Shown piece after piece: positions 1-36,820 of a stretch of DNA of 36,888 nt; the stretch's first letter is position 1, and each line of letters starts with the position of its first letter. The DNA comes from an uncultured Bacilli bacterium. Lineage in GTDB: Bacteria > Bacillota_I > Bacilli_A > RF39 > UBA660. The stretch is from assembly GCA_947625215.1 (NCBI GenBank), contig CANQNL010000006.1:1-36888 (forward strand). Reading direction: 5' to 3'. The notes beneath the pieces were generated by a model. The model did not search any database. It worked only from the letters and a program-made list of their open reading frames with translations, and was not told the DNA's origin. The position numbers and the translations under genes were made by a program.

Positions 1-39
1 ATAATATACTTAGAGTAAACTAGGTAAGGAGAAAAATGT
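1..39 (+). promoter_or_regulatory. Leader of first TasA-like gene, -10 cut by window edge
   Basis: The window opens with ATAAT, the tail of a probable TATAAT -10 box, followed by a leader nearly identical to the one at 35330-35369. Both carry AGTAAAC exactly 14 bases after the first T of the -10 and then CTAGGTAAGGAGAAAAATGT before the start codon. AAGGAG is the ribosome binding site. An ATG at 36 lies four bases before the true start at 40, in another frame. The -35 region, and any G-tract like the one at 35320-35329, lies outside the window. Confidence 0.7.
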
Positions 40-1365
40 ATGAGCGAAAGACAAAAAAGAAATATAATAATAGGAACACTTTGCGGAGTACTATTATTAA
101 TGGCTGTAGGGTATGCAGCATTTAATACACTTTTAACTATAAATGGAACAACAAGTATAACTAGTAACTGGGATATAAAGATAACTAATATTACTAGTAA
201 AGGTATAATAGGAAAAGCATCTGATGAAGAATCACAGGTAGTAGATGACCTATCAGCTACCTTTAAAGCAAATTTAGTATCACCAGGAGATTCTATAACC
301 TATGATATAACTGTCGAAAATAAAGGAAATATAAATGCTGAGTTAAGTAGTATAAGTATGAGTGAAAACACTAATGACAGTATAAAAATAGAAACAAGTG
401 GGATAACCGATGGGGATAAACTAAATGCCGGTAGTACGGCAACCTTAAGTGTAAAAATCACATATAGTGATGAAGTAACAAAGCAACCTGATAATTTAAA
501 AGCTGAAGTAACTATAACTTTAAATTATGTAGAAGAAGGAATGAAAAAAGATGCAACAGCTCCAGAAGTATCAGTAACATCAGTAACTTCTGGCTGCAGT
601 GCAACATCAATTAATTATACAATAACCGAAAAAGATTCAACTGTTGATACGGTTAATATATATTACAAAAAAACAAATGATGGTGCGTGGACTTCAGTGG
701 GAACAGGAAGTTGTAAATCAGGTGAATGTAATTATTCATATAATTTAAGTGTATCAGATAATGATTCAAGGGAATGGAAAGTAGAAGCTATAAATTCAGA
801 TGGTCTAATAGGAAGCGGAAGTAAAGAGGCATCTTATTCTTGTTATACTGGTTGTTTTGTAGCCGGAACTCTAGTACCAACACCAAATGGATATAAAAAG
901 ATAGAAGATTTACATTTAGGAGATAAAGTATATTCATATAATTTAAATACACAAAAATTAGAAGAAAAAGAAATATTAAAAGAATATTCACAAGGTACAG
1001 GAAAGTTAGTAACAATAAATTATGAAAAAATAAATAAAATACAATATGCCCCAGCATATAGAAAAAACAATATAGGAAATTATTATAATAGGGCATCAGA
1101 ATCTGAAAATAAAACAGAAATTAAAAGTACATTAATTCATCCATATTATGTCATAAATAAAGGATGGACAAAGGCAAAAGACTTAAAAGTAGGAGATAGA
1201 ATATTAACAATAGATGGAAATGAAGCAGTAATAACAAGGATAGATATTAATGCAGTAGCAGACACCGAAGTATATAATTTCTTAATTGAAGATAATCACG
1301 ATTTCTATGTTGGTATTGATGGATTACTTGTTCATAATAGTATTACTGGTGGCAACGATAAGTAA
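40..1365 (+). CDS. TasA/SipW-type surface protein with C-terminal intein-like Hint domain
   Basis: This 441-residue exported protein has a basic N-terminus and a hydrophobic segment (residues 8-29, ending GYAAFNT) like SipW-dependent signal peptides of TasA/camelysin proteins. A TasA-like beta domain follows (about 45-165), with the phrases LVSPGDSITYDITVENKGN and LNYVEEG. Residues 172-268 form a Cys-containing Ig-like domain. From Cys272 (CFVAGTLV) to His432-Asn433 there is a complete Hint fold: nucleophilic Cys1, a TxxH block (Thr364, His367), and a terminal HN followed by Ser434. Only eight residues follow (SITGGNDK). Known Hint domains splice or self-cleave, so release of the tail, ligation, or attachment of the N-terminal part to a nucleophile are all possible; which occurs is unknown. 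The domain is usually followed by a toxin or extein and here is not. The next gene, a paralogue, lies 39 bases downstream with no terminator between, so they are probably co-transcribed. Confidence 0.85.
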   Translation: MSERQKRNIIIGTLCGVLLLMAVGYAAFNTLLTINGTTSITSNWDIKITNITSKGIIGKASDEESQVVDDLSATFKANLVSPGDSITYDITVENKGNINAELSSISMSENTNDSIKIETSGITDGDKLNAGSTATLSVKITYSDEVTKQPDNLKAEVTITLNYVEEGMKKDATAPEVSVTSVTSGCSATSINYTITEKDSTVDTVNIYYKKTNDGAWTSVGTGSCKSGECNYSYNLSVSDNDSREWKVEAINSDGLIGSGSKEASYSCYTGCFVAGTLVPTPNGYKKIEDLHLGDKVYSYNLNTQKLEEKEILKEYSQGTGKLVTINYEKINKIQYAPAYRKNNIGNYYNRASESENKTEIKSTLIHPYYVINKGWTKAKDLKVGDRILTIDGNEAVITRIDINAVADTEVYNFLIEDNHDFYVGIDGLLVHNSITGGNDK

Positions 1366-1404: not shown

Positions 1405-2430
1405 ATGAGCGAAAAGAAAAAAAGAAATATAATAATATGTACGTTATGCGGAGTACTATTATTAATGACTGTAGGGTATGCGGCATTTAATACACTTTTA
1501 ACGATTAATGGAACAACAAGTATAACAAGTAACTGGGATATAAAGATAACTGGAATTACTAGTAAAGGTATAGTAGGAAAAGCTTCTGATGAACAGTCCC
1601 AAGTAGTAGATGACTTAAAAGCTACTTTTAAAGCCAATTTGGTAAGCCCAGGAGATTCAATAACTTATGATATAACAGTCGAAAATAAAGGAAATATAAA
1701 TGCCCAGTTAGATAGTATTGATGTTAGTGAAAACACCAATGAAAATATAAAAATAGAAACATCGGGAATAAATGAAGGAGATACTTTAAATCCTAGTAGC
1801 TTAGCCACCTTAAGTGTAAAAGTAACATATAGTGATGATGTAACAACGCAGCCTGATAATCTAGAAACAGAGGTAACTATAACCTTAAATTATGTTCAGG
1901 AAGGGATGAGAACACCATTTCCTGAAACAATTGATTTTGATACTGTATCAACAACTAATTCAATAACCGTAACAGCAACAAAAGTAGGTGGAGCCACTTA
2001 TGAATTTAAAAAAGATGGTGATGCTTATGTAAGTAATGGTAAAAATAATGTGTACACATTTAATGAAATAACCCATAATACTTCTCATAACATTCAGGTT
2101 AAAGTAACAAAGGGAGATCAAATTTTAGAATCCGATATAAAATCGGCAAGAACTAATTTACTTGAAAATACTACAGGGTGTTCATTTGGAAATTTAATTG
2201 GAAAAGCTATATTTCCAGAGGGATGTTCTACTGGCTGGGTTTGCAGTTTATCTTATGATGCCGGTGCTGCTGGTGGGTTATGTAATGCGAGTTGTAGAGG
2301 CGGAGAGTGCTCTTGTTCGGTAAATATACAAGGGGAAGACCATAAAGTTGAAACAACTATATCAGATGGATTTAATAAGGTAACTAATGAATGTCATTCG
2401 AGTAACAGTGACCCAGATCTTACGAGCTAG
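1405..2430 (+). CDS. TasA/SipW-type surface protein with Cys-rich C-terminus
   Basis: This 341-residue paralogue of the gene at 40 shares an almost identical first 167 residues: signal segment, LTINGTTSITSNWDIKIT and the LVSPGDSITYDITVENKGN block. The similarity holds at the DNA level, which suggests recent duplication or gene conversion. After LNYVQEGM it diverges into an Fn3-like stretch (about 172-252) and a Cys-rich Ig-like domain (255-335) whose SCRGGEC phrase matches SCKSGEC in the upstream paralogue, so the two share a second, more diverged domain. There is no Hint domain. The ribosome binding site is AAAGGAAG. The protein is probably extracellular or wall-associated, perhaps fibre-forming as TasA is; that role is inferred from the family. 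A terminator follows directly. Confidence 0.82.
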   Translation: MSEKKKRNIIICTLCGVLLLMTVGYAAFNTLLTINGTTSITSNWDIKITGITSKGIVGKASDEQSQVVDDLKATFKANLVSPGDSITYDITVENKGNINAQLDSIDVSENTNENIKIETSGINEGDTLNPSSLATLSVKVTYSDDVTTQPDNLETEVTITLNYVQEGMRTPFPETIDFDTVSTTNSITVTATKVGGATYEFKKDGDAYVSNGKNNVYTFNEITHNTSHNIQVKVTKGDQILESDIKSARTNLLENTTGCSFGNLIGKAIFPEGCSTGWVCSLSYDAGAAGGLCNASCRGGECSCSVNIQGEDHKVETTISDGFNKVTNECHSSNSDPDLTS

Positions 2431-22291: not shown

Positions 22292-22843
22292 ATGAAAGAT
22301 TCAAAAATATTTTTATTAGGTGGTAAGGCACGTAGTGGCAAAGATACAGTTGCTAAATTTATTAAAAATCATTATGAAAATGAAAATAAAAAAGTCGTAA
22401 TATTTGGTTTTTCCGATTATATTAAAGATTATGCAATGAAAGTAAGTGACTGGGATGGTAGTGATGAGACTAAACCACGTGAACTACTCCAAATGCTTGG
22501 AACTGATATAATTAGAAAAAATATCGATGAAAACTTTTTTATAAACCGCGTATGTGATGATATAACTGTTTACAAATATTTTTTTGATGTTATAATAATA
22601 TCCGGTGCACGTTATCCGAATGAATTAGATATGCCAAAAAGTAAATTTGATAATGTGTATTCCCTTGAGGTGGAAAGACCTAATTTTGAAAATAATTTAA
22701 CAGCCAAAGAGAAAAAACACGCAACTGAAACGTCATTAGATAATTATAATAAATATGATTATAAAATAATAAATGATACTGATTTAGATACTTTAAAAAC
22801 AAAAGTAGAGAAAATCATAGAAGAGGTGGAAAATGGACATTAA
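22292..22843 (+). CDS. Deoxynucleoside-monophosphate-kinase-like P-loop protein
   Basis: This 183-residue protein has an N-terminal Walker A motif (FLLGGKARSGKDT, residues 6-18), followed by DYIKDYAMKVSDWDG, LLQMLGTD, and a second strand VIIISGARYPNELD. The arrangement resembles the phage-type dNMP kinase/AAA family (COG0237-like fold). The likely reaction is phosphate transfer to a nucleotide or coenzyme precursor; the substrate cannot be told. RBS AAAGGAG. It shares the alanine T-box with alaS and overlaps the alaS start by 11 bases, so the two are translationally coupled, which is odd for a kinase of this type. Confidence 0.7.
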   Translation: MKDSKIFLLGGKARSGKDTVAKFIKNHYENENKKVVIFGFSDYIKDYAMKVSDWDGSDETKPRELLQMLGTDIIRKNIDENFFINRVCDDITVYKYFFDVIIISGARYPNELDMPKSKFDNVYSLEVERPNFENNLTAKEKKHATETSLDNYNKYDYKIINDTDLDTLKTKVEKIIEEVENGH

Positions 22844-24590
22844 AGATACCTATATAAAATTTTTTGAAAATAAAGGACATAAATACATTCCTAGTAGTGG
22901 GGTAATTCCTGAAAATGATCCAACAAGTTTATTTACAACGGCAGGAATGCAGCCACTTGTTCCTTATCTTATGGGAGCTAAACATCCAGAGGGAACTAGG
23001 CTTGTCGATGTTCAAAAATGTTTTAGAACTAATGATTTAGATGCTATAGGTGATAAATGCCATCATACATTTTTTGAAATGTTAGGAAACTGGTCATTAG
23101 GAGATTATTTTAAAAAAGAATCAATTACTTGGAGTTTAGAACTTTTAACTAAAAAGTTTAATATTGATATCAATAAATTAGCCGTTACGGTTTTTGAAGG
23201 TGAAAAAAATATTCCAAGAGATGATGAATCAGCTTCAGTATGGAAAAGCCTAGGTATAAGTGAAGATAGAATTAGTTATCTAGACCGAAGCAATAACTTT
23301 TGGATTGCCGGAAATAGTGGTCCTTGTGGACCTGATACCGAAATTTTTTATTGGACTTCTGATGAACCGGTACCTAAAAAACACGATCCTAATGATGAAA
23401 GATGGGTAGAGATTTGGAATAATGTTTTTATGCAATATTATATGGATGAAAAAGGAAATATCAGTCCACTTTCACAAAAAAATGTTGACACTGGTATGGG
23501 TGTTGAAAGGATAACTGCTGTTTTAGAAAAAAAAGACGATAACTATAAAACTTCTATTTGGAAAGATATAATTAGTCAAATTGAAGAAGTATCTCATAAA
23601 TCTTATGATGATCCTAAATATACAAAAGCTATGCGAATAATTGCTGACCATATTAGAGCTATAGTTATGATTAGTGGTGATGATGCTAAAATAAAGCCTT
23701 CTAATACAGATCAGGGGTATATTTTAAGAAGGTTAATTAGACGTACTATTAGATATGCTAAAAAATTAGAAATTGATATTAATAGTGATTGGGATATAAA
23801 GTTAGCTTCAATGATTATTGATAAGTATGCTAAATATTATAATGAACTTATTCGTAATAGAGAAACTATACTTGAAGTATTAAAAACTGAAAAAACTAAA
23901 TTTAATCGTACTTTAGAAAAAGGTCTTAGAGAATTTGAAAAAATAACCAGACATTTAGATGAGGATATGATAAATAAAGATTTAGTTTTTAGATTATATG
24001 ATACTTATGGTTTTCCAATTGAACTTACAGAGGAACTTGCTTTAGAAAATAATTTAAAAGTTGATACCGAAGGCTTTAAACAAAAATTTAAAGAGCATCA
24101 GGAAAAATCAAGAACTGCTTCTGCGGGTAAATTCAAAGGTGGTTTAGCTGGTGATGGTGTTATTGAAACCAAGTATCACACTGCAACTCATTTATTAAAT
24201 GCCGCTTTAAAAGAAGTTATAAATAAAGATGTTCACCAAATGGGTAGTAATATTACGGCCGAGAGAATGCGTTTTGATTTCTCTTGTGATCATAAACTTA
24301 CTGATGAAGAAAAAATGAAAGTCGAAGCATTAGTTAATAAATGGATAGAAGAAAAAATAGATGTTACTAATGAAATAATGAGTAAAGAAGAAGCATTAAA
24401 ATCAGGTGCTGAATGTATGTTTATTGAAAAGTATCCTGATGAAGTAACAGTATATTCTATCGGAAATATTTCTAAAGAATTATGTGGTGGACCGCACGTT
24501 AAAAATACAGGTGAACTAGGACATTTTAAAATAAAAAAAGAAGAAGCTAGTAGTGCTGGTGTAAGAAGAATTAAAGCCATTTTAGAATAA
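22833..24590 (+). CDS. alaS: Alanyl-tRNA synthetase, short form without C-Ala domain
   Basis: Class II synthetase charging tRNA-Ala. Catalytic motifs: FTTAGMQPLVPYL, the motif 2 region DVQKCFRTNDLDAIGDKCHHTFFEMLGNWSLGDYF, and motif 3 GMGVERITAVL. The tRNA-recognition helical domain follows (RIIADHIRAIVMISGDDAKIKPSNTDQGYILRRLIRR). The editing domain is complete, with zinc ligands His449, His453, Cys551 and His555. The protein stops at residue 585, right after the SSAGVRRIKAIL strand, so the roughly 290-residue oligomerisation/C-Ala module of usual 870-residue AlaS is absent. A terminator overlaps the stop, so the short end is not a local frameshift with the remainder downstream. RBS AAGAGGTGG. 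Confidence 0.95.
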   Translation: MDIKDTYIKFFENKGHKYIPSSGVIPENDPTSLFTTAGMQPLVPYLMGAKHPEGTRLVDVQKCFRTNDLDAIGDKCHHTFFEMLGNWSLGDYFKKESITWSLELLTKKFNIDINKLAVTVFEGEKNIPRDDESASVWKSLGISEDRISYLDRSNNFWIAGNSGPCGPDTEIFYWTSDEPVPKKHDPNDERWVEIWNNVFMQYYMDEKGNISPLSQKNVDTGMGVERITAVLEKKDDNYKTSIWKDIISQIEEVSHKSYDDPKYTKAMRIIADHIRAIVMISGDDAKIKPSNTDQGYILRRLIRRTIRYAKKLEIDINSDWDIKLASMIIDKYAKYYNELIRNRETILEVLKTEKTKFNRTLEKGLREFEKITRHLDEDMINKDLVFRLYDTYGFPIELTEELALENNLKVDTEGFKQKFKEHQEKSRTASAGKFKGGLAGDGVIETKYHTATHLLNAALKEVINKDVHQMGSNITAERMRFDFSCDHKLTDEEKMKVEALVNKWIEEKIDVTNEIMSKEEALKSGAECMFIEKYPDEVTVYSIGNISKELCGGPHVKNTGELGHFKIKKEEASSAGVRRIKAILE

Positions 24591-25850: not shown

Positions 25851-25920
25851 GTGGGTTTACTCCTAAACCCTAAAAAATGTTTAAAAAATTTGCTAGGCTA
25901 TTTTCTTTTTTTAGAATGTG

Positions 25921-25929
25921 TGTTAGAAT
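25921..25929 (+). promoter_or_regulatory. Candidate extended -10 promoter of the RM gene
   Basis: TGT followed by TAGAAT (25924-25929), 19 bases before the chosen start; no good -35. It overlaps the in-frame extension, supporting the downstream start. Confidence 0.4.
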
Positions 25930-25948
25930 TATTGTAGTAGGTGATAAA

Positions 25949-28900
25949 ATGGATTTAATTGAAAAATTAAAAAAAATTGGATTTATATATGAAGATGGAA
26001 AAGTGGAATGGCTTTCATTAACTGTTAATAACTATAAATTGGGTGTTAATTTAGAGGATAAAAAAATAAATTATGGTAATAAAATAGCAGTTAATAGGAA
26101 TGAAGCATTAAATGCTAATATTCCAGAAAATATAGTTAGATTAGAATGTATTGCTCGTCTTTTGAGGCAAGGTTATAAGCCAGAAAAAATAGAATTGGAA
26201 AAAACATATAAATTGGGACACAAATATAAGGGTTATGCAGATATAGTTCTCTACAAAAATAATAAAACTTATATGATTATTGAATGTAAAAGAGATTTAA
26301 AAGAATTAGAAAAAGAAAAAAATCAAATGCTTGATGATGGTGGCCAATTATTTTCATATTATCAGCAGGATAAGTCAGCTGAGATACTAGTTTTATATAC
26401 ATCAAATTTTGAAATTCTAGATTTATATTCTAATTTAATAATATTTACAGAAGACAATTATAAAGATACATTAACAATGGGAGAAATATATGCTAGATGG
26501 AATAAACAATTTGATAGTACAAGGATTTTTGCACAGGAATTTTTACCTTATAATATATCTAGCAAACCATTATCATATAGAGATTTGGAAGATTTAAACG
26601 AAAGAGATAGTAAAATAATCTTTAATCAATTTCAGGAGATTTTAAGACATAATGTTGTTTCGGATAAACCTAATGCATTTAACAAAATGATGAATTTGTT
26701 TTTATGTAAAATAGTTGATGAATTTGAAGACACTAAACAAATTTTGGACTTTCAATGGTTAGAATCTGACGATGAAGAATCATTTATGACAAGACTAAAT
26801 GATTTGTATAAAAAAGGTATGAAAATATATTTTCATAAAGATTTGATAGATTATACAAAAGATGATATTTTTAAGGTAGCAGGGAATGATCCGGAATTAC
26901 TAAAAATGTTTAATGATTTAAGGCTTAAAAAAAATAACGAGTTTGCATTTAAAGAAGTATTTGATAATAAAACATTTATTGAGAATACATTAATAGTTAA
27001 GGAAATTGTAATGCTTTTACAAAACAAAAGAATCAGGTACTCATATAAGCAACAGTTTTTAGGAGACTTTTTTGAATTGCTTTTAAATACAAGTTTGAAG
27101 CAAGAAGCTGGACAATTTTTTACTCCTATTCCAATCGTAAGATTTATATTAAAATCTTTACCTATATATGAAATTATTACTAATAAAATAAACAATGGTG
27201 ATAATAAATTTTTACCTTATACAATTGATTATGCAGTTGGGACTGGACATTTTTTAACTGAATCAATGGATTGGTATGACTTTATAATTAGGAATAATTT
27301 ATTAGATCAAAACATTATGAATAGAGTTCAAAGAGAACAATATCAAATGTGGCAAAATTCTGATACACAATATCAATGGGCAAATGAATACATATATGGT
27401 ATAGAAAAAGATTATAGACTGATTAAGAGTGCTAAAGTAAGTTGTTTTCTAAATGGAGACGGAGATGCTGTTATTATCAATGGAGATGGGTTAGATAATT
27501 TTAAGACAAGTATCGATTATAAGGGAAAATTAAAGTATTCTAACCCAAATGACAGCAAAATGAATGAACAATTTGATGTATTAATTGCAAACCCTCCGTA
27601 TTCTGTTAATTCATTTAAAAATTATTTGAGAGATGCTAAAACATCATTTGAATTATTTGATAAAATAACAGAGAATAGCTCTGAAATTGAATGTTTATTT
27701 ATTGAACGTGCATATCAATTATTAAAAACTGGCGGTGTTGCAGGAATTATTCTTCCATCAAGTATATTATCTAATGGAAAAATTTATACTTATACAAGAA
27801 ATATTCTTTTAAAACATTTTGATATAATATCAATTGTTTCATTGGGTGATTGTACATTTATGGAAACTGGGACAAATACTATTATATTGTTTTTAAGAAA
27901 AAAAGATAATTCTATTTATATTAATATAAATAATAAGGTAAAAGAATTATTAAATTCTCCAAAAATTACCGATATTACAATAAATGGAGTTGATCATTGT
28001 ATATCAAAATATTTAAAGGATGTTTATAATGATATTTTCTCTTTGCAAGATTATGACTTATTTTTAAAACAACCAGAGAAAGTAGACAATATTATTTCAA
28101 AACAGTATTTAAAAAAATATAAAAAGGAAGATGTTATACGATATGAAGTTGAAAAACTATGCATTTATTTAATATCTATAGGTCAAAAAGTGGTTATCGC
28201 AAATACTGGTGATTCTAAAGATGAACAAGTTAATTTCTTGGGATATTCATTTAGTAAAAGAAGAAAATATGAAGGTATGCACAAAAGATTAGATGAGAAT
28301 GGTAATTTGGTTACTAAATTGTATAACGAAATGAATATAAATGATTCTACTAAATTAAATAGTTATATATATAATAATTTTAATGATAATGATTTTGAAA
28401 TAGATAGCGATTTAAATGAGAATGTTGATTTGTATAATTTGAAGGATATTATAGAATTCGAACCTATTGGTGATGAATTTATTTGTAAAATTTCCACTAC
28501 GCCAATTGATAAATTTAAAATTAATTCTCAATATGAAGTTAAACCACTAGGAACCCTTTTAATTAAAGAACCGATTGGAGGGTCAACTCCTTCAAAAGAA
28601 AATACCTCGTATTGGAATAGTAGCGATATTTCTTGGGTTACATTGGAAGATTTTGAAAATGATTTATATATAACTAGTTCTAAAAAATTTGTTTCTAATC
28701 AAGCATTAGAAGATAAAAAGATAAGAATTATTCCTAAAAACTCTGTATTGATGAGTTGTACTGCAACTTTAGGAAAAGTTAAAATAAATTCTATTGAATG
28801 TGCAACTAATCAACAAATAAATGCTTTAGTATGTGATGAAGAACAAATTATTCCTGAATTTTTGGCATACTATCTCTCATCTAATAATTCTCATTTACAT

Positions 28901-29686
28901 TATTTAACTAATAATCTTGGTGTAAAACATATTAATCTTTCGTTGCTTAAAAGGTTACAAGTTATTGTACCACCATTGGATATTCAAAGAAAAATTCTTA
29001 AAACTATAGAGGTAGATAAATCTAAAATTACTGATATATCAGAAAAAGTTAATACTCATAGGTTAAATATAATTAAAACTATTAACCAAAATTTATCTGG
29101 AAAATATGAAAATTTGGAGGATTTATGTATTGATAATGGAATTAAAATTGGTGGGACCCCAGCATCATATGAATATAAATATTATCACAATGGTGAAAAT
29201 CTATGGGTTAAAATTTCTGATATGGTAGGAGATAAAATATATGACACAGCAAAGAAAATAAATGATTTAGGTGTAAAAAATTCTAATGTTAAGCTTATAA
29301 AAAAAGGATCTCCGCTTATATCGTTTAAACTGACAATTGGAAAAACTGCAATTGCTGGTAAAGATCTTTATACAAATGAGGCGATTATGGCCTTAGAACC
29401 TATAAATGATATAGATAATAGATTTTTATTCTATTTATTTAAATATAATTTTGTTGATATGAGTGCAGATCAAAAAGCCTTTGGCAAATCATTAAATCTA
29501 CCTTTATTAAAGAAACTTAAAATTCCATATATATATGATGATGATATAAAAATTCAATTGATTGATTATATATCGAATGAGGAAGACTTATTAAATAAGG
29601 CTAATATAGAGATTACTAAATTATCCGAAAATATTCAAAGCAAGTTTGAAGAAGAATTAAAAAAACCAACAAGTAATAATATTTAA
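25949..29686 (+). CDS. Single-chain restriction-methyltransferase-specificity protein (Type IIG/BcgI-like or HsdRMS fusion)
   Basis: I take the ATG at 25949 behind TAGGTGATAAA (1245 residues). Residues about 60-160 form a Type I HsdR-N-like PD-(D/E)xK nuclease: Glu66, Asp98 (KGYADIVLY) and Glu112-Cys-Lys114. No helicase motor follows. Residues about 350-700 are an N6-adenine methyltransferase of HsdM type: QEAGQFFTPIPIVRFIL, the SAM-binding motif DYAVGTGHF (427-434) and NPPY (548-551). The C-terminal half carries two HsdS-like target recognition domains (about 855-1050 and 1050-1235) with helical spacers (VPPLDIQRKILKTIEVD). Two TRDs imply a bipartite target. The gene lies alone in an accessory island, so protection and cutting would come from one polypeptide. 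All visible catalytic motifs look intact. Confidence 0.9.
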   Translation: MDLIEKLKKIGFIYEDGKVEWLSLTVNNYKLGVNLEDKKINYGNKIAVNRNEALNANIPENIVRLECIARLLRQGYKPEKIELEKTYKLGHKYKGYADIVLYKNNKTYMIIECKRDLKELEKEKNQMLDDGGQLFSYYQQDKSAEILVLYTSNFEILDLYSNLIIFTEDNYKDTLTMGEIYARWNKQFDSTRIFAQEFLPYNISSKPLSYRDLEDLNERDSKIIFNQFQEILRHNVVSDKPNAFNKMMNLFLCKIVDEFEDTKQILDFQWLESDDEESFMTRLNDLYKKGMKIYFHKDLIDYTKDDIFKVAGNDPELLKMFNDLRLKKNNEFAFKEVFDNKTFIENTLIVKEIVMLLQNKRIRYSYKQQFLGDFFELLLNTSLKQEAGQFFTPIPIVRFILKSLPIYEIITNKINNGDNKFLPYTIDYAVGTGHFLTESMDWYDFIIRNNLLDQNIMNRVQREQYQMWQNSDTQYQWANEYIYGIEKDYRLIKSAKVSCFLNGDGDAVIINGDGLDNFKTSIDYKGKLKYSNPNDSKMNEQFDVLIANPPYSVNSFKNYLRDAKTSFELFDKITENSSEIECLFIERAYQLLKTGGVAGIILPSSILSNGKIYTYTRNILLKHFDIISIVSLGDCTFMETGTNTIILFLRKKDNSIYININNKVKELLNSPKITDITINGVDHCISKYLKDVYNDIFSLQDYDLFLKQPEKVDNIISKQYLKKYKKEDVIRYEVEKLCIYLISIGQKVVIANTGDSKDEQVNFLGYSFSKRRKYEGMHKRLDENGNLVTKLYNEMNINDSTKLNSYIYNNFNDNDFEIDSDLNENVDLYNLKDIIEFEPIGDEFICKISTTPIDKFKINSQYEVKPLGTLLIKEPIGGSTPSKENTSYWNSSDISWVTLEDFENDLYITSSKKFVSNQALEDKKIRIIPKNSVLMSCTATLGKVKINSIECATNQQINALVCDEEQIIPEFLAYYLSSNNSHLHYLTNNLGVKHINLSLLKRLQVIVPPLDIQRKILKTIEVDKSKITDISEKVNTHRLNIIKTINQNLSGKYENLEDLCIDNGIKIGGTPASYEYKYYHNGENLWVKISDMVGDKIYDTAKKINDLGVKNSNVKLIKKGSPLISFKLTIGKTAIAGKDLYTNEAIMALEPINDIDNRFLFYLFKYNFVDMSADQKAFGKSLNLPLLKKLKIPYIYDDDIKIQLIDYISNEEDLLNKANIEITKLSENIQSKFEEELKKPTSNNI

Positions 29687-35303: not shown

Positions 35304-35335
35304 TTGCCAAAAACCTGGTGGGGGGGGGGTATAAT
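35304..35335 (+). promoter_or_regulatory. Promoter with G10 tract between -35 and -10 (putative phase switch)
   Basis: TTGCCA (35304-35309) and a perfect TATAAT (35330-35335) are separated by 20 bases, the last ten of which are an unbroken run of G (35320-35329) abutting the -10. The usual spacer is 17, so a tract of seven Gs would restore it. Homopolymers at this position change length by slippage and switch promoters on and off in several bacteria. In such AT-rich DNA a G10 run is very unlikely by chance. The leader downstream matches positions 1-39. Confidence 0.8.
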
Positions 35336-35369
35336 GTTTATATAGTAAACTAGGTAAGGAGAAAAATGT

Positions 35370-36767
35370 ATGAGTGAACGCAGAAAAAGAAATATAGTAA
35401 TATGTACGTTATGCGGCGTACTACTATTAATGACTGTAGGCTATGCCGCATTTAATACACTTTTAACTATAAATGGAACAACATCAATTAGTAGTAACTG
35501 GGATATAAGAATAACTGGAATTACTAGTGAAGATATAGTAGGTGGTGCCTCAGATGCCGAATCAAGTGTAGTAGATAATTTAACGGCAAATTTTAAGGCA
35601 AATCTAGTATCACCAGGAGACAGTATAACTTATTATGTGACAGTAGAAAATAAAGGAAATATAAATGCTGAACTTGCCGGAATAAAAATGAGTAAAAATG
35701 ATAATTCTGCTATAACATTTGAAACAAGTGGTTTAACAACAGGAGATGCATTAAATGCAGGGGATAAAGCTGTATTAAAAATAAAAGTAACATATAATTC
35801 AAATATAACCAAACAACCCGATAATTTAGAAGCAAATTTAACAGTAACATTAAACTATGTACAAGAAGGACATAAAAGCGAATGGAAACCAGAAGGAAGT
35901 AAAACCATAGAAGAATTAAAAGAACTGGTAACAACAGAAGGAGATGGATTATATGAAGATACATATGAACCAGGAAGATATATTTATAGAGGAGCAGCTC
36001 CTGATAATTATATAACCTTTAACAATGAACAGTGGCGAATAATAGCAGTAGAAACTGACGACACTTTGAAAATTGTTCGCGCTATAACTCTTGAAGAAAG
36101 GCCTTTTGATAGTCAAAATGCTAGGACTGATGGCTATTGTTCATATGCATATCGTGATGGTGAACATTTAGGCTGTAATGTCTGGGCAATTACTGATAAT
36201 TACGACAATCATTCCAGTTCAACTGGTGGTACAAAAGGACCAGTAACTAAAGATTCAGAGATAAAAACATATTTAAATACAACATATTATAATTCAATCG
36301 TTGCCAATAAAGAAGCTATTGAATATCATAATTTTTATTATGGTAGTGTCTATGATAAAGCTGAAAATGAAACTGAAGTTGTTAATGAAGAAAAAAAATA
36401 TGCTACTAAGAGTTATATAGGACTAATTAATACAAGTGATTTTTTGAAAACTAATACTAATACAGAATATTGCGGAAAAAATCCACACAATCCTTGGGCA
36501 AATTTTGCTTCTAATAATTGCGTTTCTACTGGTTGGATGCATAGAGTTTCCATTACTGGCTCGTGGTCTTATACTTTAAATCCAAATTTTAGTAATGGCT
36601 ATACGGTAACTAGTGGTGCTGTCCAAACATTTCGTATGAATGGTTATTTTCAACCACAATATCCCAAAAACGTCTATTCTATCGTACCTGCTCTTTATTT
36701 AAAATCGGATATATTATTGTCAGGGGATGGTACCCAAGAGAATCCATATACAATCGAAAATTATTAA
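35370..36767 (+). CDS. TasA/SipW-type surface protein with DUF6273-like C-terminal domain
   Basis: The third paralogue (465 residues) shares the first 167 residues with the genes at 40 and 1405 (signal segment, LLTINGTTSI, SNWDIRITGIT, LVSPGDSITYYVTVENKGN, LNYVQEG). It then carries a roughly 295-residue domain with WRIIAVETDDTLKIVRAIT, IKTYLNTTYYNSI, YIGLINTSDFL, NPWANF and the end VPALYLKSDILLSGDGTQENPYTI, which resembles the DUF6273 domain of Firmicutes surface proteins. An ATG at 35366 lies in another frame and stops after three codons. The start at 35370 is eight bases from AAGGAG. Expression probably varies with the G tract upstream. The shared head may dock each variant in the same fibre or wall site. 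Confidence 0.85.
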   Translation: MSERRKRNIVICTLCGVLLLMTVGYAAFNTLLTINGTTSISSNWDIRITGITSEDIVGGASDAESSVVDNLTANFKANLVSPGDSITYYVTVENKGNINAELAGIKMSKNDNSAITFETSGLTTGDALNAGDKAVLKIKVTYNSNITKQPDNLEANLTVTLNYVQEGHKSEWKPEGSKTIEELKELVTTEGDGLYEDTYEPGRYIYRGAAPDNYITFNNEQWRIIAVETDDTLKIVRAITLEERPFDSQNARTDGYCSYAYRDGEHLGCNVWAITDNYDNHSSSTGGTKGPVTKDSEIKTYLNTTYYNSIVANKEAIEYHNFYYGSVYDKAENETEVVNEEKKYATKSYIGLINTSDFLKTNTNTEYCGKNPHNPWANFASNNCVSTGWMHRVSITGSWSYTLNPNFSNGYTVTSGAVQTFRMNGYFQPQYPKNVYSIVPALYLKSDILLSGDGTQENPYTIENY

Positions 36768-36787
36768 AGTTTTAAAATTTATAAAAA

Positions 36788-36820
36788 ACCAAAATTGTCT
36801 AAGCAAATTTGGTTTTTTTA
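36788..36820 (+). terminator. Intrinsic terminator after the third TasA-like gene
   Basis: ACCAAAATTG (36788-36797) pairs with CAAATTTGGT (36804-36813) with one A-A mismatch around TCTAAG, then T residues. Confidence 0.8.

Follow-up and report, generated by a model that had tools for sequence, protein, structure and literature searches.

A promoter cassette in which a run of Gs makes up much of the distance between the -35 element and an adjoining TATAAT box stands in at least 35 copies in the draft genome of an uncultured member of the Bacilli, and every readable gene behind it (31 of 31) belongs to one family of predicted secreted proteins, whose N-terminal domain we call TasA-like on the weak scores given below. 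We consider it probable that these promoters undergo spacer-length phase variation of the porA/fetA/tp0126 type, acting on a sigma-70-type promoter and repeated throughout a surface-protein family. Slipped-strand mispairing within the G tract would alter the -35/-10 distance, and the altered distance would in turn affect how the gene for a secreted TasA-like surface protein is transcribed, with a single cassette (GAAAATACTTGCCAAAAACCT-Gn-TATAAT and a short conserved leader) driving the whole set of paralogs. If each tract slips independently, then many combinations of surface proteins would be represented among the cells of a population; host immunity, phages or adhesion might be the selective reason. 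The window, i.e. the whole stretch of 36,888 nucleotides that was analysed, is contig C6 of this 1.2-Mb draft genome, which comprises 73 contigs.

A poly-G promoter in many copies

Direct reading of the window promoter (Table 1) agrees with the earlier note, which had described TTGCCA, a 20-base spacer ending in ten Gs and an adjoining TATAAT. The spacer (35310-35329) consists of AAAACCTGGT followed by G10, and a detail absent from that description is that the tract is interrupted, reading G2-T-G10 when compared with the paralogs. Most of the latter have AAAACCT followed by Gn, without the T; hence, the 20 bases of the window spacer are what a tract of 13 Gs would give, with the third G replaced by a T. 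The -10 box is followed by GTTTATATAGTAAACTAGGTAAGGAGAAAAATGT and then by the ATG at 35370, and the transcript of this gene is probably monocistronic. At the left edge of the window lies the remnant of a second such promoter, whose G tract would sit just outside the contig.

The G10 tract is the sole run of G or C longer than six in the window (29% GC), in which about 0.001 runs of ten or more would be expected at this composition, and the G8 count of the window was unmatched in 100 dinucleotide shuffles. Across the genome G8-TATAAT occurs 29 times and the reversed pattern 0 times, which excludes chance at this scale. Lowering the limit to tracts of at least G6 joined to TATAAT gives 35 promoters. 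Conversely, 37 of the 40 G7+ runs of the genome lie in this promoter context, five of these being truncated at a contig end ahead of the -10, and three lie elsewhere. The architecture claimed for a switch in the promoter of a surface gene stands; where the earlier note saw one such promoter, there are at least 35. The exact window promoter has no other carrier among the genome contigs and viral contigs searched. One paralog (G000:C3:46863) combines an intact G12 promoter with a TAG stop at codon 13.

An invertible promoter was considered and rejected: the inverted repeats around the window promoter amount to one AT-rich 14-nt flanking pair, and the similarity between paralogs is at background upstream of about -30.

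Table 1. Features of the window promoter, its gene and the related genes at the left end of the window
Feature	Position	Strand	Remarks
-35 element TTGCCA	35304-35309	+	within the family-conserved block GAAAATACTTGCCAAAAACCT; direct reading
Fixed spacer part AAAACCTGGT	35310-35319	+	T at 35319 breaks the G tract (G2-T-G10)
G10 tract	35320-35329	+	predicted slippage site setting the -35/-10 distance; paralog tracts 6-17
-10 element TATAAT	35330-35335	+	abuts the tract in nearly all 35 family promoters (extra A in one)
Ribosome-binding site AAGGAG	35356-35361	+	in the short leader conserved among paralogs
465-aa secreted modular protein (predicted)	35370-36767	+	signal/TM helix, TasA-like beta-sandwich (about 46-165), DUF6273-like C-terminal module
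Intrinsic terminator, hairpin and T run	36783-36819	+	sequence and fold, z = -2.06
Right half of a second promoter of this class	1-39	+	contig begins inside the -10 (ATAATATACTTAGAGTAAACTAGGTAAGGAG...); assigned by its identity to leaders elsewhere in the family
Paralog sharing the N-terminal domain, with a HINT domain at the C-terminus	40-1365	+	73% identity over 167 aa
Paralog that follows 40-1365 as the second gene	1405-2430	+	without a G tract of its own

Spacer length within the genome and across species

The tracts in the genome range from 6 to 17 Gs and the spacers from 13 to 24 bases, the latter being distributed as 13 (three promoters), 16 (three), 17 (two), 18 (eight), 19 (ten), 20 (five) and 24 (one); tracts of 6, 7, 9, 14 and 17 Gs occur in otherwise conserved promoters. 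The GAAAATACTTGCCAAAAACCT block is found in most of these 32 family promoters and the leader is likewise conserved, with pairwise identity at the TTG positions of 0.69-0.93 versus 0.29-0.39 farther upstream. More than about 30 bases upstream of the tract the similarity is no longer above background, so the promoters lack long flanking repeats. In the relative G042, loci with 39-64 identical upstream bases, and unrelated DNA beyond these, carry 11, 12 or 13 Gs. Conserved cassette flanks with differing numbers of Gs point to the tract as the fastest-changing element of the cassette. To this extent the proposal of a phase-variable tract is borne out, in that its length differs strongly between paralogs with conserved flanks; slippage at each locus is predicted.

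It is rather improbable that surface variation is mainly achieved by recombination between paralogs sharing a promoter and N-terminus and differing at the C-terminus, with the tract a by-product of the spread of the cassette. The N-terminal parts are often 52-75% identical, the C-terminal modules are of varying types (DUF6273-like, HINT, Cys-rich) and the above G042 cassettes have been placed in unrelated DNA, all of which fits such recombination; however, it leaves aside that cassettes with identical flanks differ in their number of Gs, that the tract is also seen in species with other -35 and prefix sequences, and that long repeats around the promoters are lacking. Recombination and tract slippage could also act together. 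That the length differences stem from sequencing or assembly error is hardly credible: the assembly is a draft in which several contigs end in or beside tracts, and individual tract lengths, including the G10 of the window, could be off by one or more, but the range of 6-17 far exceeds plus or minus 1, and species-specific means that compensate for the prefix length (see below) cannot be explained in this way.

The earlier note further took 17 bases to be optimal, the window copy to be perhaps in a low or off state and the loss of three Gs to be what would turn it on. Ordinary TTGACA-N-TATAAT promoters do peak at 17 (18 of 40 sites, with 16 in eight, 18 in five, 20 in two, 21 in three and 22 in four), but the claim is doubtful. 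Spacers of 16-18 are seen in 13 of the 32 poly-G promoters as against 31 of the 40 ordinary ones (Fisher p = 0.002), across nine species the poly-G spacers cluster around 18-20, and 11 of the 12 promoters of a distant lineage have 19. There are two readings of this: at any given time most poly-G copies may be off, or the best length for a G-rich spacer may be 18-19. The compensation of prefix length by tract length and the distant array with its spacing of 19, both described below, favour the latter, and with a G tract in the spacer the working optimum may accordingly lie at about 18-19. In light of this evidence for a longer optimum, we do not endorse the loss of three Gs as the step that turns the gene on. 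With its spacer of 20, the window copy would be off the optimum by one to three bases, according to the reading, and by one or two if the optimum is 18-19.

Within the genus, G8-TATAAT is present in 11 of 44 genomes and the reversed pattern in 0 of 44. In these relatives too the tract touches the -10, the -35 and non-G prefix differ by species (e.g., CTTGCCAAAACCA, CTTGAAATTTTGAT, ATTGACAAAGTA and CTTGCAAATATGCT), and the genes behind the tracts mostly have short leaders and code for N-terminally hydrophobic secreted proteins of the GYAAF type. Comparison of related genomes, a check suggested in the earlier note, reveals that what the species have in common is the spacing and not the length of the tract. 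In the nine species with at least two promoters, which share ancestry, and with the last TTG upstream taken as the -35, a shorter non-G prefix goes with a longer G run (Spearman rho -0.96), and the variance of the total spacing is 3.4 versus 6.0 when permuted (0 of 5000 as low). This compensation is what selection on distance predicts and hence argues that the total -35/-10 spacing is under constraint. It also bears on the idea that the tract is a regulator site, as proposed for opc, with its length tuning binding and not spacing: such a site would fit the conservation of GAAAATACTTGCCAAAAACCT upstream of the tract within the family, but the conservation of total spacing and not of the -35 or prefix across species points to the -35/-10 distance, and makes this idea very improbable.

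In the wider class, G9-TATAAT occurs in only 12 of 247 sampled genomes, mostly as one or two copies. CTTG-N7-14-G9-TATAAT is present in at least 117 stretches from named genomes, many of them drafts of gut Bacilli and Clostridia; among the stretches listed, the downstream proteins often have hydrophobic N-termini, and the single-copy matches may be due to chance. Certain uncultured Bacilli (L209, L275, L285, L292, L300 and L311) carry another secreted family (AATIISSINVGYNNESSKLVADNVQDAIDEV) as a tandem array. Here G9 is nearly invariant, and one promoter keeps the spacer of 19 though its G run is interrupted by an A. The near-constant G9 and spacer in the 12 copies of this array raise the possibility that some poly-G promoters are fixed. 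Elsewhere, a G14 TATAAT promoter precedes a type IV pilin-like gene (L177, G042:C31) and a G16 TATAAT promoter precedes an unrelated secreted protein (L052, G022:C62); hence, promoters of this type are not exclusive to one family.

These comparisons lend some weight to the view of the G tract as a structural promoter element under stabilising selection, wherein G-tract DNA has a geometry unlike that of mixed DNA, a G-rich spacer of 18-20 bp is the proper one, and length differences are near-neutral and bring about no switching. The centring on 18-20 in nine species, the retention of 19 in the distant array even with a broken tract, and the selection on one spacing implied by the compensation are all in line with it. 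Nevertheless, spacers from 13 to 24 bases cannot all suit a sigma-70 promoter equally, a long spacer needs no pure homopolymer, and in the genome studied here the tract is restricted to surface-protein genes. We accordingly regard a purely structural role as unlikely and favour phase variation through spacer length.

Loss of mismatch repair was considered as a driver of slippage and rejected, as other species with poly-G promoters have MutS and the genome of the window (G000) has MutL. MutS had no match in G000 and matches above the cut-off in 40 of 44 genus genomes; since G000 also lacks a Tad-type ATPase found a short way behind mutS in three relatives, this absence may be an assembly gap. 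Both MutS and MutL are found in most genus genomes, so slippage is not generally unrepaired in this group.

The secreted family behind the tracts

The N-terminal hydrophobic helix and GYAAF motif of the window protein, along with a SipW-type peptidase in the genome, uphold the earlier assignment of the gene product as secreted or surface-located, with localisation being predicted. Its N-terminal 167 residues match 68 places in the genome (the start is recoverable in 56, and 47 are complete), and the N-terminal domain is present in more than 50 copies. The best PDB match of this domain is the TasA fibre 8aur (probability 0.97, with weak scores of E 2.8e-3 and TM 0.32), closely followed by the archaeal filaments 7pnb and 7ueg, and it is by these weak scores that we term it TasA-like. 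At the sequence level, the window protein had no match to the Peptidase_M73 and TasA models, 8 of 46 paralogs matched PF12389 (E <= 0.01) and one TIGR04090, and a PDB sequence search yielded chance-level matches only. A search of viral contigs for the family recovered a single distant relative of the C-terminal part. The intein-like, self-processing HINT domain occurs at or near the end of 5 of 46 paralogs, including the window gene at 40-1365, L072, L076 and L063.

The SipW-type signal peptidase is a match to TIGR02228 above the cut-off at C8:15652; in the region C8:15652-24200 (L157, L073) it is joined to an N-terminal membrane part. Adjoining it are ten short TasA/camelysin-like paralogs, all without G tracts, which along with the peptidase are perhaps the part of the system that stays constant. 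In TasA, a phenylalanine stands two residues past the SipW cleavage site (PMC10269814). The family motif, GYA|AF, would likewise place a phenylalanine two residues after the likely cleavage site. In this residue, the SipW-type peptidase and the weakly scoring N-terminal fold match, the family resembles Bacillus TasA and camelysin and the archaeal donor-strand filaments, whereas it differs from them in that the domain, multiplied as it is, bears large variable C-terminal modules. We infer that the family might function as a coat, adhesin or filament.

Known systems and a possible combinatorial coat

Homopolymer promoters with a measured effect are known from porA, fetA, tp0126 and the tpr genes (PMC7864442, PMC5320596). 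In Neisseria porA and fetA, a poly-G or poly-C in the spacer sets the -35/-10 distance, and with it transcription and the surface protein (PMC5320596, PMC7864442), a chain that is predicted for the present promoters; N. gonorrhoeae NCCP11945 has three transcriptional switches in total (PMC5320596), as against at least 35 homologous ones in the present case, in another phylum and with another protein family. In Treponema pallidum, the poly-G of tp0126 lies between the -35 and -10, and activity is best at 17 nt (PMC7864442). The tp0126 and tpr genes share with the present set the poly-G in surface-gene promoters, some of them paralogous, but the paralogs are few and their products are outer-membrane proteins, whereas those described here are putatively SipW-dependent; in tprL, moreover, the tract overlaps the -10 and leaves the spacing unchanged. 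In scale, the set is comparable to vlhA of Mycoplasma gallisepticum, a large surface family in which every gene carries a variable repeat of its own at its promoter (PMC6258824). It differs in that the repeats are GAA trinucleotides some 40 nt ahead of the transcription start, with 12 being regarded as the one active repeat number, and in that the products are lipoproteins. A vlhA-type GAA-repeat switch was rejected for the window, which contains no (GAA)5.

The mechanism, then, is already known, while its scale, clade and target family appear to be new, as does the combination of one poly-G spacer cassette with dozens of TasA-like paralogs in uncultured Bacilli. The lineage comprises small-genome Bacilli from gut metagenomes, and among the open-access literature we found no paper on phase variation in it. 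If true, this would be among the largest sets of promoter-spacer switches known to us, and would explain the surface heterogeneity of these organisms as well as the assembly breaks in their genomes. Since one promoter is available in dozens of naturally differing lengths, the spacing rule for G tracts also becomes directly testable.

As a tentative extension, the system might be a combinatorial coat, in which the independently slipping promoters, at least 35 in number, would govern interchangeable and possibly filament-forming TasA-like subunits with a common exported domain and different C-terminal modules, while the tract-free short paralogs by the SipW-type peptidase would provide a constant scaffold and the G-tract optimum would perhaps be 18-19.

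Among the other genes of the window, the ORF at 22833-24590 resembles alanyl-tRNA synthetase, with a length of only 585 aa and a C-terminal part that is seemingly absent. The ORF at 25877-29686 (1269 aa) resembles, on a tentative reading, a fused type I restriction-modification protein with a methylase and a specificity part.
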